A stretch of 64,000 nt of DNA, from the NCBI GenBank assembly GCA_026129865.1, contig JAHCHG010000003.1:62001-126000 (forward strand), given 5' to 3'. Positions 30 through 60,691 of this stretch are shown one piece after another. Positions within the stretch are counted from its first letter, which is position 1. Each line of letters begins with the position of its first letter. The position numbers and the translations under genes were made by a program. Source of the stretch: Pyrinomonadaceae bacterium (lineage in GTDB: Bacteria; Acidobacteriota; Blastocatellia; Pyrinomonadales; Pyrinomonadaceae). Below the pieces are notes generated by a model that had not been told where the DNA came from, did no database searches, and worked only from the letters and a program-made list of their open reading frames with translations.

Positions 30-1562
30 CTAACGTACCGAGTTCGGGTTTAGTTTCTGCCACTCCGCCCGCAGGAGAAAGCTTCCGTCCGTCACAATTT
101 TATCGCCGACGAACAAACCTTCGAGGACAGGAAGCATTCCGTCCGATTCGATTCCTAAACGAACCGGTTTTAATAAAAACACATTCGGATCTTCCGTTGC
201 GGCGAAGACGATTTGTTGTCCGTTTATGTTCTGCACCGCTTCCTTTGGGATCATCGGAACCGTGTTTTCAGAACCGCCGAGCGTCGCAAACGCTATGTTG
301 ACATACATTCCGATCTTTAATTTTTCGCCCGCGTTCGGCAATTCTATCCTGACCTGAGCGGTGCGCGTATTTTGGTCGAGATTCGGGTCAATATACGAAA
401 CATTTCCACGAAAGATCTCGCCCGGAAATGCGTCGCTTGTAATACTTGCGCCGCTTCCGATTCTCAAATTCGCCAAATCTTTTTCATAAACCTGTCCGAT
501 CACCCAAACGGTTGAAAGATTTGTTACCTTTAATAATTCCGTGTTCGCCATGATCGTTTCCCCGGCGTTGATCTGACGCATGGTAACAGTGCCGGAAACA
601 GGCGAAACAAGCGGTAATTCCGCACTTATCTGACTTGATGAGGTTAAGGAATTCACTCTTTGAAGCGGCAATCCTAAGACCAGCAATCTTTGTTTCATCG
701 AAGCGAGTTCGGCTCGCGCAGATTGAAGTTGTCGAAGCGCTGCATCTTGTTCGGCGCGCCGTGCGGGATTGATGTCGAGGAGTTTCTTAGCGCGTTCCAG
801 GCGATTTTTTGCCTCGATAACCTTCGCTTCGGCGGTTCTGAGATCGGTCGTCGCAATTTCAAACGCTTCACGGCTGACAGCTCCGATTCCGACAAGTTTT
901 TTCATTCGGTCAAATTCGCTTTTATCTTCTGCAAGCTTGGCTTCGGCGATCTTTAATTCCGCCGCAGCATTATCGTTCTCGTTTCGGCTTTCCGAAGCAA
1001 TACCGGTCAATTTCAAGGCGCGATCGTAAGCCTTTTCGGCTTCACTTACCGCAGCGCGTTTTGCCAGATAATCCGATTCCGCGCTCGCCAGTTCGTTGCT
1101 TCTCACGACGGCAATCGTCTGACCGGCGCGGACAAATTGACCGAGCTCGGCATTGACGCGCTGAACAACGCCGCCGACTTGCGAAATGACAGGCGTTTCC
1201 CTGTAATCGTTCGGCTGAACTACGCCGGTCGCACTTGTTTCCTTTGAAACTTTACTCAAACCTTCGCCGACGGTTACGATCTTCAAATTCGCGGCTTCAA
1301 GCTGCGCGTCGGTCAGTTCGATCTTTTGCTCGCCGGAACTAAAAGCATTGCTGGCATCGGTCGGTTCATTAAAAGAAACATCGCGCGGTGCGGGAACAGG
1401 TTTGCCGCCTGAACCTTTGCTGACGTAAAGCCAGATCAATAGACCGGCGATCATTACCAAGATCAAACCGCCGATGATATACGGCAATTTCGTTTTTGCG
1501 GGCGGACGAATCTTTTCGGATTCATCGACTATTTCAGGATTTTCGTAATTTTCTTCGTTCAT
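30..1562 (-). CDS. RND heavy-metal efflux periplasmic adaptor (CzcB/CusB-like)
   Basis: Membrane-fusion protein that would link the inner-membrane RND pump to the outer-membrane factor. The 510 residues begin with a charged N-terminus and one membrane anchor (about residues 28-46). A split lipoyl/barrel-sandwich region (VVQRVNAELGQFVRAGQ) flanks a long helical hairpin rich in Ala/Glu (about 150-290). The second half-lipoyl region (PVSGTVTMRQINAGE) and beta-barrel domains follow. It is the last gene of a minus-strand operon with the pump and the TolC-like protein, although a 368-bp gap of hairpin repeats separates it from the latter. The metal cannot be read from the sequence; Co/Zn/Cd or Cu/Ag are the family options. 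Confidence 0.9.
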   Translation of the reverse strand: MNEENYENPEIVDESEKIRPPAKTKLPYIIGGLILVMIAGLLIWLYVSKGSGGKPVPAPRDVSFNEPTDASNAFSSGEQKIELTDAQLEAANLKIVTVGEGLSKVSKETSATGVVQPNDYRETPVISQVGGVVQRVNAELGQFVRAGQTIAVVRSNELASAESDYLAKRAAVSEAEKAYDRALKLTGIASESRNENDNAAAELKIAEAKLAEDKSEFDRMKKLVGIGAVSREAFEIATTDLRTAEAKVIEAKNRLERAKKLLDINPARRAEQDAALRQLQSARAELASMKQRLLVLGLPLQRVNSLTSSSQISAELPLVSPVSGTVTMRQINAGETIMANTELLKVTNLSTVWVIGQVYEKDLANLRIGSGASITSDAFPGEIFRGNVSYIDPNLDQNTRTAQVRIELPNAGEKLKIGMYVNIAFATLGGSENTVPMIPKEAVQNINGQQIVFAATEDPNVFLLKPVRLGIESDGMLPVLEGLFVGDKIVTDGSFLLRAEWQKLNPNSVR

Positions 1563-1930: not shown

Positions 1931-3427
1931 TCACTTTCCCACCTTCAGTTCCGGCGCGGAAATCGCGCTTAAAATCGCTACCCGCGCCAGATACGTTTCA
2001 AGCTGCGCGTCTATAAAATCTTCTTTTATTTCAATAAATCGTCGTTGTTCGGCGATGTAATCGAGCAGATTCTGCTTTCCGAGTTCGTAGATCTGCCGCA
2101 CGACATTTAAGTTAATTTCGGCTTGATTTTCCACACCGACGCGGAAAATTTCCATCGCCCGTGCAGCTCTCTGATATTGAATATAGCTTGCGGCAATTTC
2201 GCGTCGCACGGTTAGTTCGCCAAATTCGAGCCGTCGCACGGCTGCGGCTTTCTCCAAAACGGCGGCTTCGACCGTTCCCTGATTTCTGTCGAAAACAGGA
2301 AGGTTCAATGTCACGCCGACCGAAAGAACATTCATTTCCTCGCGAATCGGGGAAAGATTTCCCAGGTCTTCAAATCCAGTTTGCGGAAACATCTGGACGG
2401 ATCGTTCGAAACCTGCGCTGACCGATGCATCGAGTTTTCCCTGAATTTTCCCCTGTTCGACGCGGGCTGTTGCGAGATTTTCCATTGCACGCGCGGTTTG
2501 CAGATCGGGTCGATTCTGCAATGCCGTCTGCGTCGCAATTTCCTGCGGCGGAAGCGGTTCGAGCAAATTTTCAAAACCGCCGCGCAAGATCAAAGTTTCT
2601 TCGGGCGCGAACCCGACCAAGTTTTTAAGTTCGAGCAGAGAAATTTCGACTTTTCCTTCGCTCGTTTCGCGCATTGCACGAATTCGGTTGAGTTCGACTG
2701 ATTCCATACCTTGTTCGAGCGGGGCGTTTTTGCCTTCTTCGACGCGGGCGACGACCAAATTATAATTCTGCGTCGTTAAGGCAAGAGTTTCTTCGATAAA
2801 TTGAAGTTTCAAGATCAGCGCGATCGTTTCGCCGAATTTTGAACGAACTTCCGCCGCTAACAATCTTTCACGATTCTCCAAATCTTTTCGCCGCACCTCC
2901 GCTTCTTTTTGTGCAACTTCAACTCTTGCACCGCGCCGTCCGAAAAGTTCGAGCGGCAGCGCGCCTTTGACCATAAAACTTCGCGCCGGAGTCGACGGAT
3001 TTTTTGCCGCGCCGACTTCTAGCATCGGATTTGCGCGTAGATTTGCCTGTTTGACAAGCGCTTCCGCCGCTTCGACTTCCTTTCGCACTGCGGCAAGTTC
3101 GTCGTTGTTTTCAAGCGCATAAACTACAAGTTCATCGGCGGTTTTTCCGTTTGATTGATCGAGATATTTATCAACCAACGAAAGGGTTTGAGTGTTTGAA
3201 ATTTTAATTTCTGAAGTTTGTGCGGAAACTTGTTGAATTAAAATGAATAAAAACGCCAACGAAAGAATCGCTAAATTGCCGCTAACTTTAGCTAGTGGCT
3301 GAAGTTGAAAGTTGAAGAAGGCTTTAGCCGAATGACGAACCGTTAAATAGATCCTCAATGCTTTAGCTAACGCCGGCGGCAATTTACAGGAAACGTTTTT
3401 GTTTGTGCTTCTGCTTTCTATGTTCAT
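1931..3427 (-). CDS. TolC/CzcC-like outer-membrane efflux protein
   Basis: Outer-membrane factor of the tripartite metal efflux system. Two OEP repeats with long alpha-helical hairpins are visible (about residues 100-290 and 310-490), as usual for the family. Its ATG overlaps the stop of the czcA-like gene by 4 bp (ATGA), which supports this start and translational coupling. The hydrophobic signal segment ([19 protein letters not shown]) begins only near residue 51. Roughly residues 15-51 are encoded by an inverted-repeat element at 3272-3386, so the N-terminus is longer and more polar than a normal signal peptide. Start and export efficiency are therefore less certain than the family call. 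Confidence 0.88.
3272..3386. repeat. 115-bp inverted-repeat element inside the tolC-like N-terminus
   Basis: The segment is bounded by perfect 10-bp inverted repeats (TAAATTGCCG and its complement) and contains GCTAAAGC-type words. The intergenic element at 59144-59291 has the same ends (AATTGCCG/CGGCAATT) and the same internal words. The reading frame of the outer-membrane protein stays open through the element. Confidence 0.65.
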
Positions 3428-6400
3428 TCGCTTCCTCCATTTCCTGAATTTTCAAGCAAAGCTTCTTTCTTTAATTTTCGCTCGTGAATCCAGTAAAAGA
3501 TCACTGGCGTAACGATCAAAACGTGCAAAAGGCTTGAGATCATTCCGCCTAGAACGGGCGTTGCGAGCGGTTTCATTACTTCCGAACCCGCACTCGAACT
3601 CCACATGATCGGCAAAAGACCGGCGACGATGGTTGAAACGGTCATAACTTTCGGGCGCAATCTTAAAAGTGCGCCTTCGGTGATTGCTTCGAGCAGATCT
3701 TTTCGCGTTAAAATTCCAAGTTCCTTTTTCTTTTTCTCGACCGCTTCTTCCAGATAAATGACCATTACAACGCCCGTCTGCACGGCGGTTCCGAAAAGCG
3801 CGATGAAGCCGACCCAGACCGCGACCGAAAAGTTGTAATCGAGAAACCATAGAAGATAAACTCCGCCGGTCAGCGCAAACGGCACGGCGAGCAAAACGTG
3901 CGCGGCTTCGATCGCGGAATTGTAGGTCAGATAGAGCAAGCCGAAAGTGATGATCAGAACGATTGGAATGACAAGCATCAGACGCTCGCGGGCGCGTTGC
4001 TGGTTTTCAAATTGACCGCTCCAATTGATGTAATAACCCGCCGGAAGCTGAACTTTTTCGACGACCGCTTTGTTTGCTTCTTCGACGAAGCCGACGACAT
4101 CGCGCCCGCGAACATTGAGCAGAACCGTTCCGCGCAAAAGACCATTTTCGCTCTGGATCATTGATGCGCCCGTCGTTGTTCTGATCTCTGCGACCTGCGC
4201 GAGCGGAATTGTTTGTCCGCTTGCCGTTAAGATCGGAAGTTGTCCGATCGCTTCGGGGCTTTCGCGAAATTCCGGCGCGAAGCGAACACGAACCGGAAAA
4301 CGATTTCGTCCTTCGATCGTAACCGAGAGATTTCGTTCGCCGATTCCTGCTTCGATAGAATCCTGAATTGTTCCAACGTCAATTCCGTAACGCGCCGCCG
4401 CCTGACGATTGATGTCAATATCAACATAAGGCGCACCGATGATTTGTTCGGGGTAAACGTCTGCCGCGCCCGGAACTTCTTTGACGATAGCAGCGACCTC
4501 GCGCGAAACTTGTTCGAGTTTTTTTAGATCGTCGCCGAAAATTTTGATTCCGACTTCCGAACGAATTCCCGTCGCAAGCATCTCGATGCGGTTGATGATC
4601 GGCTGCGTCCAGATGTTCGTAACGCCGGGCATTTTCAACTTTGCATCCATTTCTGCGATCAGAGATTGGCGCGTAACTCCCGGTCGCCATTCGCTTTGCG
4701 GTTTCAGATGAATGATCGTTTCATTCATATTGATCGGCGCAGGATCGGTTGAGGTTTCGGCGCGTCCGGCTTTCCCGACCGCCCATTCGACTTCGGGAAA
4801 GGTATTGATAATCTCGTCCTGACGGCTCATTATTTTCAGAGCTTCATCAATCGAAATTGCCGGGTCCGTTACGGGCATGAACATCAGATCGCCTTCATTG
4901 AGCGGCGGCATAAATTCTTTGCCGATGCCCGAACCGAGGAAAACCGCGCCGGAAAATAGAATGACTGCGAGAAGAATTGTCAGTGCGCGATTTTTCAAAG
5001 CCCAATTTAGAGCGGGTTGGTAAAGCCTGTGCAAAAAGCGCATCACGGGATTTGATTGTTCGGAATGAAATTTTCCGCCCAAAAGATATGTGCATAGAAC
5101 CGGAACCAGCGTAACGGCGATAACGGTCGCGCCGATCATCGCAAAAGTTTTCGTAAATGCCAGCGGATGAAAGAGTTTGCCTTCCTGTCCGGTCAGCGAA
5201 AAAACCGGAATAAATGCAAGAATAATGATCGCCATCGAAAAGAAAACGGGTCGCCCGACGAGTTTTGTAGATTCCAAAACAGTCTTCCAGACGAGTTTTC
5301 GATCTTTCGGATCAACGCCGCGTTTTTCCATAAAACGAAATGCGTTTTCCATCACGACGATTCCCGCATCAACCAAAACTCCGATAGCAATCGCAATGCC
5401 GGAAAGCGACATGATATTCGAACTAATTCCCATGTAATGCATGAACAAAAATGAGATCAGCACGGCGAGCGGCAGAGGAATCGTTACGATCAAAATCGAA
5501 CGAAAATGCGCCAGAAATATGATGTGAGCGAGTGTTACGAGAAGAAGTTCTTCAACCAAAGTCCATTTCAGAGTGCTTGTCGCGCGGTTGATGAGCTGCG
5601 TGCGGTCGTAAAACGGCACAACGGAAACGCCTTGAGGCAAGCCGACTTTTAATTCTTCGATCTTCTTTTTGACGGCGTTAATCGTTTCGAGCGTGTTCAC
5701 TCCGTAACGCGCAATGACCACGCCGCCGACGGCTTCTTTGCCGTTTTTATCTAGCGCACCCGTGCGAAATGCGTCGCCGATCTTCACATTTGCAACATTT
5801 TTAACAAAAATCGGCGTTCCGTTTGACTCACCGATGACGATGTTTTCGACATCCGCAGTTGATTCGATCAAACCGATTCCGCGCACGACCGCCCATTCGC
5901 CGGATTGTTCGACGACGTTTCCGCCGACGTTGTTATTCGATCTTTCGACCGCTTCGACAACTTTTGACAGCGGAATATCGAAACCGCGAAGTTTATTCGG
6001 ATCAACATCAACCTGATATTGCTGGACATAACCGCCAACCGAAGCGACTTCCGCCACGCCTGGAACGGAGTTTAATTGATAACGCACAAACCAATCTTGA
6101 AGCGTTCTGAGTTCGCGCAGATTGTGCTGATCGCTTTCGAGCGTGTACCAGAAAATTTGTCCAACGCCCGTCGCATCGGGTCCGAGCGTCGGCGTTACGC
6201 CTTCCGGCATTTGCTTTGTAACCAAATTTAAACGCTCTAAAACCCGCGTCCGAGCCCAATATAGATCAACCGAATCTTCAAAAATGATGTTGATCATCGA
6301 AAAGCTGAACGCCGAACTCGCCCGCACGGTGCGAACGCCGGGAAGTCCCTGCAAATTCGTAACGAGCGGATAAGTTACCTGATCTTCGACTTCCTGCGGC

Positions 6401-6570
6401 GAACGTCCAGCCCAATCGGTGAAAACGATTACCTGATTATCTGAAACGTCCGGAATCGCATCGATCGGCGTATTGACGAGCGCCCAGTAACCCCATGCTG
6501 CAAGTCCGATATACAGCGCGATGATCAAAACACGATTTTTGAGCGACCATTCGATTATTTTGTGAATCAT
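3424..6570 (-). CDS. czcA: CzcA/CusA-family heavy-metal RND efflux pump
   Basis: Proton-driven inner-membrane RND pump of the heavy-metal efflux (HME) subfamily; 1048 residues is the normal length. It opens with the family N-terminus ([20 protein letters not shown]). The HME signature in TM4, [18 protein letters not shown], lies near residue 400 and supplies the charged residues for proton relay. [19 protein letters not shown] segment corresponds to the CusA region whose Met helps bind metal. The four-base overlap with the downstream TolC-like gene and 73 bp to the upstream YtkA-like gene indicate one operon. Cu/Ag versus Co/Zn/Cd specificity is not settled. Confidence 0.93.
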
Positions 6571-6643
6571 AAGTCAGTAATCAGTAGTCAGCAGTTAGTA
6601 GTCAGTATTTTTATCTACTTACTACTAACTACTGACTGCTTCT
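6571..6643. repeat. Heptamer-type short repeats (CAGTAGT/ACTACTG) forming an inverted repeat
   Basis: The 73-bp gap between the FixH-like gene and czcA is almost entirely degenerate copies of a CAGTAGT/CAGTTAGT unit on the left and the complementary ACTACTGACT type on the right. Together they form a hairpin around TATTTTTATC. It resembles the short tandem repeats common in intergenic DNA of some phyla. Confidence 0.6.
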
Positions 6644-19703: not shown

Positions 19704-19859
19704 GTTAATAGCCACGCGATTTATCGCGTGGGCTGATTTGATAGAAGTTTTCAGTCCCGTAGGGACGACAGCTTCTTTCGTCCCTACGGGACTTCGACAA
19801 AATTTCACATATTCCACGCGATAAATCGCGTGGCTATTAACGAAATATCCCTACGGGAC
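19704..19859. repeat. Nested inverted-repeat element with two hairpin types
   Basis: The outer arms are a perfect 28-bp inverted repeat (GTTAATAGCCACGCGA... at 19704-19731 and its complement at 19814-19841). Each arm itself folds as CCACGCGA-ttta-TCGCGTGG. Between them lies GTCCCGTAGGGAC (19754) and its complement (19779-19792), and another GTCCC-type palindrome ends the element near 19859. No ORF is supported in the 19600-19900 gap. Confidence 0.8.
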
Positions 19860-19900
19860 AGATACTTTAAAAGCGTTATTTTTAGTTCATTACCCTCTTA

Positions 19901-59078: not shown

Positions 59079-59151
59079 TTATGAATTGCCGCTTTACGAA
59101 TTAGCGCCTTATGAATTGCCGTTTTAAGAATTAGCGCCTAATGAATTGCCG
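59079..59151. repeat. Tandem 30-bp repeat, 2.4 copies
   Basis: TTATGAATTGCCGCTTTACG AATTAGCGCC units at 59079-59108 and 59109-59138 plus the start of a third. It runs into the inverted-repeat element that follows. No ORF is supported between 58999 and 59352. Confidence 0.75.
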
Positions 59152-59291
59152 TCAGCTTTAGCTGACGGAAAAGTTAATCATTCAATCGGCTTTAGCCAAA
59201 TATAAAAAAATATCAATCATCCGATTAGCTTCAGCTAAAGCATTAAGAAACCGGCTTTTATCAGATTTTCGGCTAAAGCACGACGGCAATT
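59144..59291. repeat. 148-bp inverted-repeat element with GCTAAAGC words
   Basis: Bounded by AATTGCCG and CGGCAATT. Inside are CCGTCAGC-ttta-GCTGACGG, CGGCTTTAGCC, AGCTAAAGCATTAAG and CGGCTAAAGC. The same ends and words occur in the element inside the tolC-like gene. Confidence 0.7.
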
Positions 59292-60540: not shown

Positions 60541-60581
60541 TTTGTAAATAGTTGAATCTTTTGACTTAAAACCGATAAATT

Positions 60582-60683
60582 TATCCACAGATGAACACAG
60601 ATACTTTGATTTTGATATCAAATGTCTTCGATTGAGTTTTTAATTCTTGAAAATCTGCGTGAATCCGTGTTCATCTGTGGATA
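60582..60683. repeat. Inverted repeat TATCCACAGATGAACAC / GTGTTCATCTGTGGATA
   Basis: Perfect 17/16-base arms around a 70-base loop, between the sugar dehydrogenase and the serine hydrolase gene. Another repeat with the related word CACGGATGAAGCGGATTATC is at 59010-59040. Confidence 0.75.
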
Positions 60684-60691
60684 ATTGATTC

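Follow-up and report, generated by a model that had tools for sequence, protein, structure and literature searches.

An internally deleted palindromic element read in frame within the signal-peptide region of a TolC-like protein, and an HUH/Y1 transposase linked to its family

The tolC locus and its palindromic insert

The window analysed here, a stretch of 64,000 nucleotides, carries on its minus strand a metal-efflux RND operon encoding a cusA-like pump, a TolC/OEP protein and an HlyD/CusB-type protein. The features of this locus and of a second site in the window are as follows:

3424..6570, minus strand, CusA/CzcA-family heavy-metal RND pump, the upstream gene (TIGR00914 1161 bits, cut-off 701; PF00873)
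1931..3427, minus strand, TolC/OEP-family outer-membrane efflux protein of 498 aa, reading frame open throughout (PF02321 OEP match)
30..1562, minus strand, HlyD/CusB-type membrane fusion protein in the operon of tolC (PF16576)
3425..3442, minus strand, Shine-Dalgarno GGAGG and tolC ATG start, with an ATGA overlap with the cusA stop
3236..3271, minus strand, hydrophobic signal core, tolC residues 53–64 (hydropathy maximum), directly after the element
3272..3386, no strand, internally deleted copy of a presumably mobile palindromic element whose family measures ~190 bp (inverted repeat, family alignment, covariance-model match C15:65270-65388)
3272..3294, no strand, left terminal inverted repeat TAAATTGCCGCTAACTTTAGCTA (inverted-repeat search)
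3364..3386, no strand, right terminal inverted repeat TAGCTAACGCCGGCGGCAATTTA (inverted-repeat search)
3320..3329, no strand, inner palindrome GGCTTTAGCC, conserved across the family (word counts and family alignment)
3360..3370, no strand, remnant of the central palindrome GCTTTAGCTAA, beyond which this copy lacks the element's right half (family alignment)
59144..59291, no strand, second family copy, intergenic, with an internal deletion of its own (pattern, alignment, covariance model)
59081..59143, no strand, element end repeated in tandem in ~30-bp units (TTATGAATTGCCG...), directly next to the second copy

The sequence-only reading of this DNA had described a 115-bp inverted-repeat element at 3272–3386, lying between the charged start and the hydrophobic core of the TolC-like protein and leaving the frame open, so that about 37 extra residues precede the signal; each of these points was borne out. 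The two arms are 83% complementary across a 69-nt spacer, and the element, whose ends read TAAATTGCC/GGCAATTTA across tolC, folds with a z-score of −3.2 (0 of 200 shuffles fold as well). The words AATTGCCG and GCTTTAGC are each commoner in the window than in any of 100 shuffles, and a search of the window at the level of Rfam gathering scores yielded no match. An inverted repeat that arose by chance in AT-rich coding sequence would find an argument in the modest complementarity of the arms and in nothing else, and we give it practically no weight: ends and inner words are common to at least a dozen other loci, the covariance model reaches an E-value of 4.9e-12 at the focal site (the focal copy was part of its training set), and the existence of a dispersed family refutes the idea. 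Further inverted repeats lie at 60581–60684 (TTATCCACAGATGAACACAGAT) and 6583–6640 (AGTAGTCAGCAGTTAGTAGTCAGTA) of the window.

According to the family alignment the focal copy retains ~100 bp on the left side of a full element and the terminus on the right, while its right half is gone. It is probably not a recent arrival, as the best long alignment with another copy reaches 75% across 106 bp. The element is read in frame from the third base of tolC codon 14 to codon 52 (residues 15–52). The length of 115 bp cannot be divided by three, but the conserved core AATTGCC...GGCAATT (3274–3384) spans 111 bp and thus exactly 37 codons; a net insertion of 111 bp is therefore probable. The 37–38 residues encoded by the element include six K/R and no D/E. 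The likely cleavage site of TolC is VSA/Q, after the hydrophobic core.

The start of tolC at ATG 3427 is well supported by the GGAGG sequence and the ATGA overlap with the cusA stop. A mis-called start, with translation beginning downstream and the element forming a 5′ untranslated region, would be in line with a warning in a survey of intragenic REPs that N-terminal cases are often misannotations (PMC3733652). However, the in-frame TTG codons 16 and 24 are still inside the element and have no Shine-Dalgarno sequence, and a start at TTG codon 57 would fall within the hydrophobic core and provide no charged n-region. We therefore judge a downstream start to be very unlikely.

A dispersed family of palindromic elements

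Family copies were located by pattern, alignment and covariance-model searches. The suggested mapping of copies across the genome placed the focal element in a dispersed family with about 14–16 members in its own 4.4-Mb assembly (about 14 clear copies and two that are short or doubtful), and the intergenic element at 59144–59291, said to share ends and inner words with the focal one, is indeed a second copy. Of 80 genomes from the bacterial family, 37 gave matches to the element family; several are Pyrinomonadaceae (Acidobacteriota) according to the named homologue records. The full element is ~190 bp long; its ends form hairpins (TTTATVAATTGCC ... GGCAATTBATAAA), and GCTTTAGC palindromes lie further in. 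Its parts follow in the order TTTATVAATTGCC with hairpin NNNAGCTTTAGCTNNN, GGCTTTAGCC, GCTTTAGCTAAAGC at the centre, GGCTAAAGCC and finally the opposite end as a mirror image. Alignment and consensus fold show a pair of hairpins in inverted orientation, with stem positions that vary on both sides from copy to copy. The foot of the element is TVAATTGCC (85 aligned copies). TA dinucleotides flanking the copies cannot be told from the repeat ends, and there is no clear target-site duplication.

Tandem units of the element end were found at two places, namely at 59081–59143 of the window and, as 16-bp CGGCAATTCATAAAAT units, beside a transposase gene (G000:C10 ~700–810); they look as if ends had been copied repeatedly. 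Several copies (L067, L069, L078, L082) are enclosed by the arms of a different inverted repeat, for example CAATAGTTCGGACA ... TGTCCGAACTATTG, which points to nested insertion or to hairpin loops as preferred targets. At L070 (G000:C5:21078) an ORF enters an element copy and ends there (QLMNCRLL*), the element thus giving a short C-terminal tail. A different palindromic element (CCACGCGATTTATCGCGTGG and TCAGTCCCGTAGGGA) is present at 19704–19862 of the window and has a 95% copy at C4:12112; CCACGCG words like those of this element flank another Y1 transposase at C7:32199.

Of the 94 copies with a resolved position, 61 sit between tandem genes. Three copies of the own genome (L071 at G000:C1:43327, L076 at C16:98231 and L077 at C1:50785) are located between a sensor kinase and a response regulator in paralogous two-component operons, which leaves room for an intercistronic role. 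At these three loci and at L087 (G059) the copy adjoins the start of a LuxR-type response regulator.

Reading frames of the family copies

We examined 110 copies in all six frames; these were drawn mostly from the best-scoring matches and lean to full length, so that short in-gene copies may be under-counted. Closed in every frame were 105 copies, five had any fully open frame, and among the 110 only the focal copy lies inside a genuine gene. An adaptation of the family to coding, as in the RPEs, was rejected on the basis of the 105 closed copies. When the focal 115-mer was shuffled, the coding frame was open ~12% of the time, so that by itself an open frame argues only weakly for coding. Among 28 simulated deletion derivatives, six had at least one frame open. 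Together these rates characterize the open frame as an ordinary accident after internal deletion; it has presumably been kept by selection for TolC.

Comparison with tolC orthologues

The comparison with orthologues had been set beforehand as the refuting test of the sequence-only reading. The element is absent from the N-terminus in all of the about 30 orthologue loci compared (best 56% identical to the focal TolC), and none shares the focal N-terminal sequence. A scan of the named genomes with the TolC protein found no relative. The length from start to cleavage site, read by eye from the translations, is mostly 24–34 residues in the orthologues versus 70 in the focal TolC, and removal of the 111-bp core in silico from the focal gene yields an in-frame signal peptide of 33 residues. 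This comparison supports an insertion into the signal n-region.

The exceptions with long N-termini, from two other lineages, contain repeats of other kinds. In G029 and G052 (genus g3) TolC N-termini of ~57–112 residues contain another repeat family (89 matches in G029), and the long N-terminus in G079 contains a third (66 matches). L027 (1108–1440), L031 and L048 are the TolC orthologues of other lineages in which such unrelated repeats precede the signal core in frame.

In G037, the genome with the closest orthologue, a 194-bp intercistronic copy of the focal family ends ~30 bp before the tolC ATG. This arrangement, together with unrelated palindromes at the cusA–tolC junction of other relatives, would fit a shift of the start codon: the focal element would have been an intercistronic palindrome in which a deletion opened a frame, whereupon the tolC start moved upstream across the element to the ATG overlapping the cusA stop. 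However, the 14 residues before the element resemble the start of the orthologues (MNYEAQ...) and, joined to the hydrophobic core, give the ordinary 33-residue signal peptide, and the G037 copy differs in its terminal stem (TCCAA type). A start-codon shift thus keeps an outside chance.

Palindromes occur at the cusA–tolC junction in 8 of 29 loci and at the downstream junction of tolC in 4 of 29, which is not clearly different. The cusA–tolC junction as a special palindrome hotspot was unconvincing (p 0.025 against coding windows, 8 versus 4 of 29 against the downstream junction). The junction palindromes are also relevant to a regulatory role, in which an RNA hairpin between cusA and tolC would, in the manner of intercistronic REPs, tune mRNA stability or how strongly tolC is translated compared with cusA, and would be kept for this reason. 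The strong fold of the focal element, the three copies between sensor kinases and response regulators and the prevalence of positions between tandem genes speak in its favor. Against it stand the count at the downstream junction, which is not clearly different, and the state of the focal copy, a degenerate one within mRNA that is translated; we regard a regulatory hairpin as improbable at this site.

An HUH/Y1 transposase linked to the repeats

The own genome contains 13 Y1_Tnp matches. One of them, a tnpA-like Y1 gene at G000:C10:264-704, bears full elements on both flanks. The flanks of the other five best Y1 genes have palindromes mostly different from the focal family. As a side observation, five other HUH/Y1 transposases of this genome (L053, L054, L056, L057, L058), most of them with Y---Q--HH, are bordered by distinct palindromes of their own, which amounts to several repeat–enzyme pairs in parallel in one genome. 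Within the bacterial family, 12 homologues share at least 55% identity with the enzyme; the covariance model has matches in the surrounding locus for nine of them, and two weak matches were obtained among 23 more distant Y1 genes.

A set of 80 homologues from named genomes comprised 55 from Bacteroidota, 21 mostly from Acidobacteriota and 4 others. The words GCTTTAGC or GCTAAAGC occur within 400 bp of the gene in 78 of these 80, with 2.9 expected from first-order shuffles. Their density is 4.16 per kb within 400 bp versus 0.12 per kb at 600–1000 bp, a difference of 35 times. In Runella the hairpin ends lie ~16–18 bp upstream and 37–46 bp downstream of the transposase gene, and judging from these positions the mini-element may have arisen by deletion from an element that carries the transposase.

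The residues H53, H55 (HuH), Y113, Q117, H120 and H121 are invariant in seven homologues, and the motif Y---Q--HH is found in 79 of the 80. The C10 enzyme missed the cut-off of REP_Tyr_transpos (33.2 bits, cut-off 80) and passed that of IS200 (73, cut-off 55). An HUH/Y1 transposase with Y---Q--HH (subclass 1.2) is the likely mobiliser of the element.

Proposed origin and fate of the insert

Taken together, the insert is quite probably an internally deleted copy of a non-autonomous palindromic element of ~190 bp, presumably spread by an HUH/Y1 transposase, that inserted into the signal n-region of tolC and persists there as a neutral passenger cleaved off with the signal peptide. The single-strand-specific transposase (C10:264-704) would recognize terminal hairpins preceded by AATTGCC and spread the elements, and one copy would have entered tolC at codon 14. 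A copy without its right half, with a 37-codon core and one open frame, would be translatable and would extend the n-region by 37–38 residues with positive charge. The extended signal peptide should still be recognized by Sec and cut at VSA/Q, which would leave mature TolC unchanged. The insert is thus most likely a tolerated, neutral passenger removed with the signal peptide. That it sits in a stretch expected to be cleaved away would simply explain how a hairpin-forming repeat is tolerated inside a working gene.

More generally, subclass 1.2 HUH/Y1 enzymes may represent a distinct system spanning several phyla with a repeat code of its own (AATTGCC foot and GCTTTAGC hairpin), and signal n-regions a recurring neutral entry point to coding, the latter because this N-terminal stretch contains mutually unrelated repeats in three tolC lineages; this generalization could equally prove right or wrong. 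With a conserved repeat linked to HUH transposases of a poorly understood group, substrate and function become testable in culturable hosts such as Runella and Flavobacterium. In-frame REP and RPE insertions are already described in earlier publications (PMC3733652, PMC10969869). Neither the repeat–enzyme pairing and its distribution across phyla nor the signal-peptide location and its parallel cases were found in the open-access literature searched, from which the pairing appears undescribed so far; among the matches listed in this literature for the repeat words, all were unrelated by title.

Comparison with known systems

The family resembles MITEs in its size range (70–300 bp), terminal inverted repeats and lack of coding capacity. 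In contrast to MITEs, it terminates in hairpins that are associated with a Y1 enzyme. No target-site duplication can be clearly discerned. Rickettsia palindromic elements share with the focal copy a palindrome of ~110–150 bp that is read in frame while the protein gene stays open. However, RPEs enter genes often (nearly half), with a conserved peptide, and some carry a CGTC tag (PMC10969869), whereas here one of 110 copies, in a sample biased to full length, lies in a gene and most are closed in every frame.

REPIN/BIME–RAYT systems (Nunvar 2010, PMC2817692; Bertels & Rainey 2011, PMC3116915) are alike in that two inverted hairpin ends form a short mobile palindrome, copies are scattered, for the most part in intergenic positions, the HUH/Y1 gene is single-copy and flanked by repeats, and several repeat–enzyme pairs occur within one genome. 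The present elements have AATTGCC instead of the GTAG/GTRG foot (85 aligned copies) and, unlike REPINs, extend over ~190 bp with inner palindromes. The C10 enzyme also differs from class-2 RAYTs (Y---NP) in its Y---Q--HH motif and its low REP_Tyr_transpos score.

TIRtrons with their TIRYT enzymes, as far as described in the relevant parts of Di Nocera 2013 (PMC3733652), likewise consist of a Y1 gene flanked by genome-repeated inverted repeats unrelated to GTAG; their TIRs form a moderately abundant genomic family, and they were reported in Acidobacteria. The families reported in these parts are other sequences, with no AATTGCC/GCTTTAGC family among them. The closest enzymatic counterpart is TnpA_Y1 subclass 1.2, described from Bacteroidetes and Cyanobacteria with Y---Q--HH and low copy number (Quentin 2018, PMC6006769). 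The enzymes studied here share HuH, Y---Q--HH and low copy number, and their homologues are mostly from Bacteroidota, plus Acidobacteriota. However, while subclass 1.2 was described as generally without terminal secondary structures (PMC6006769), conserved GCTTTAGC/GCTAAAGC hairpin words flank nearly all homologues in our set.
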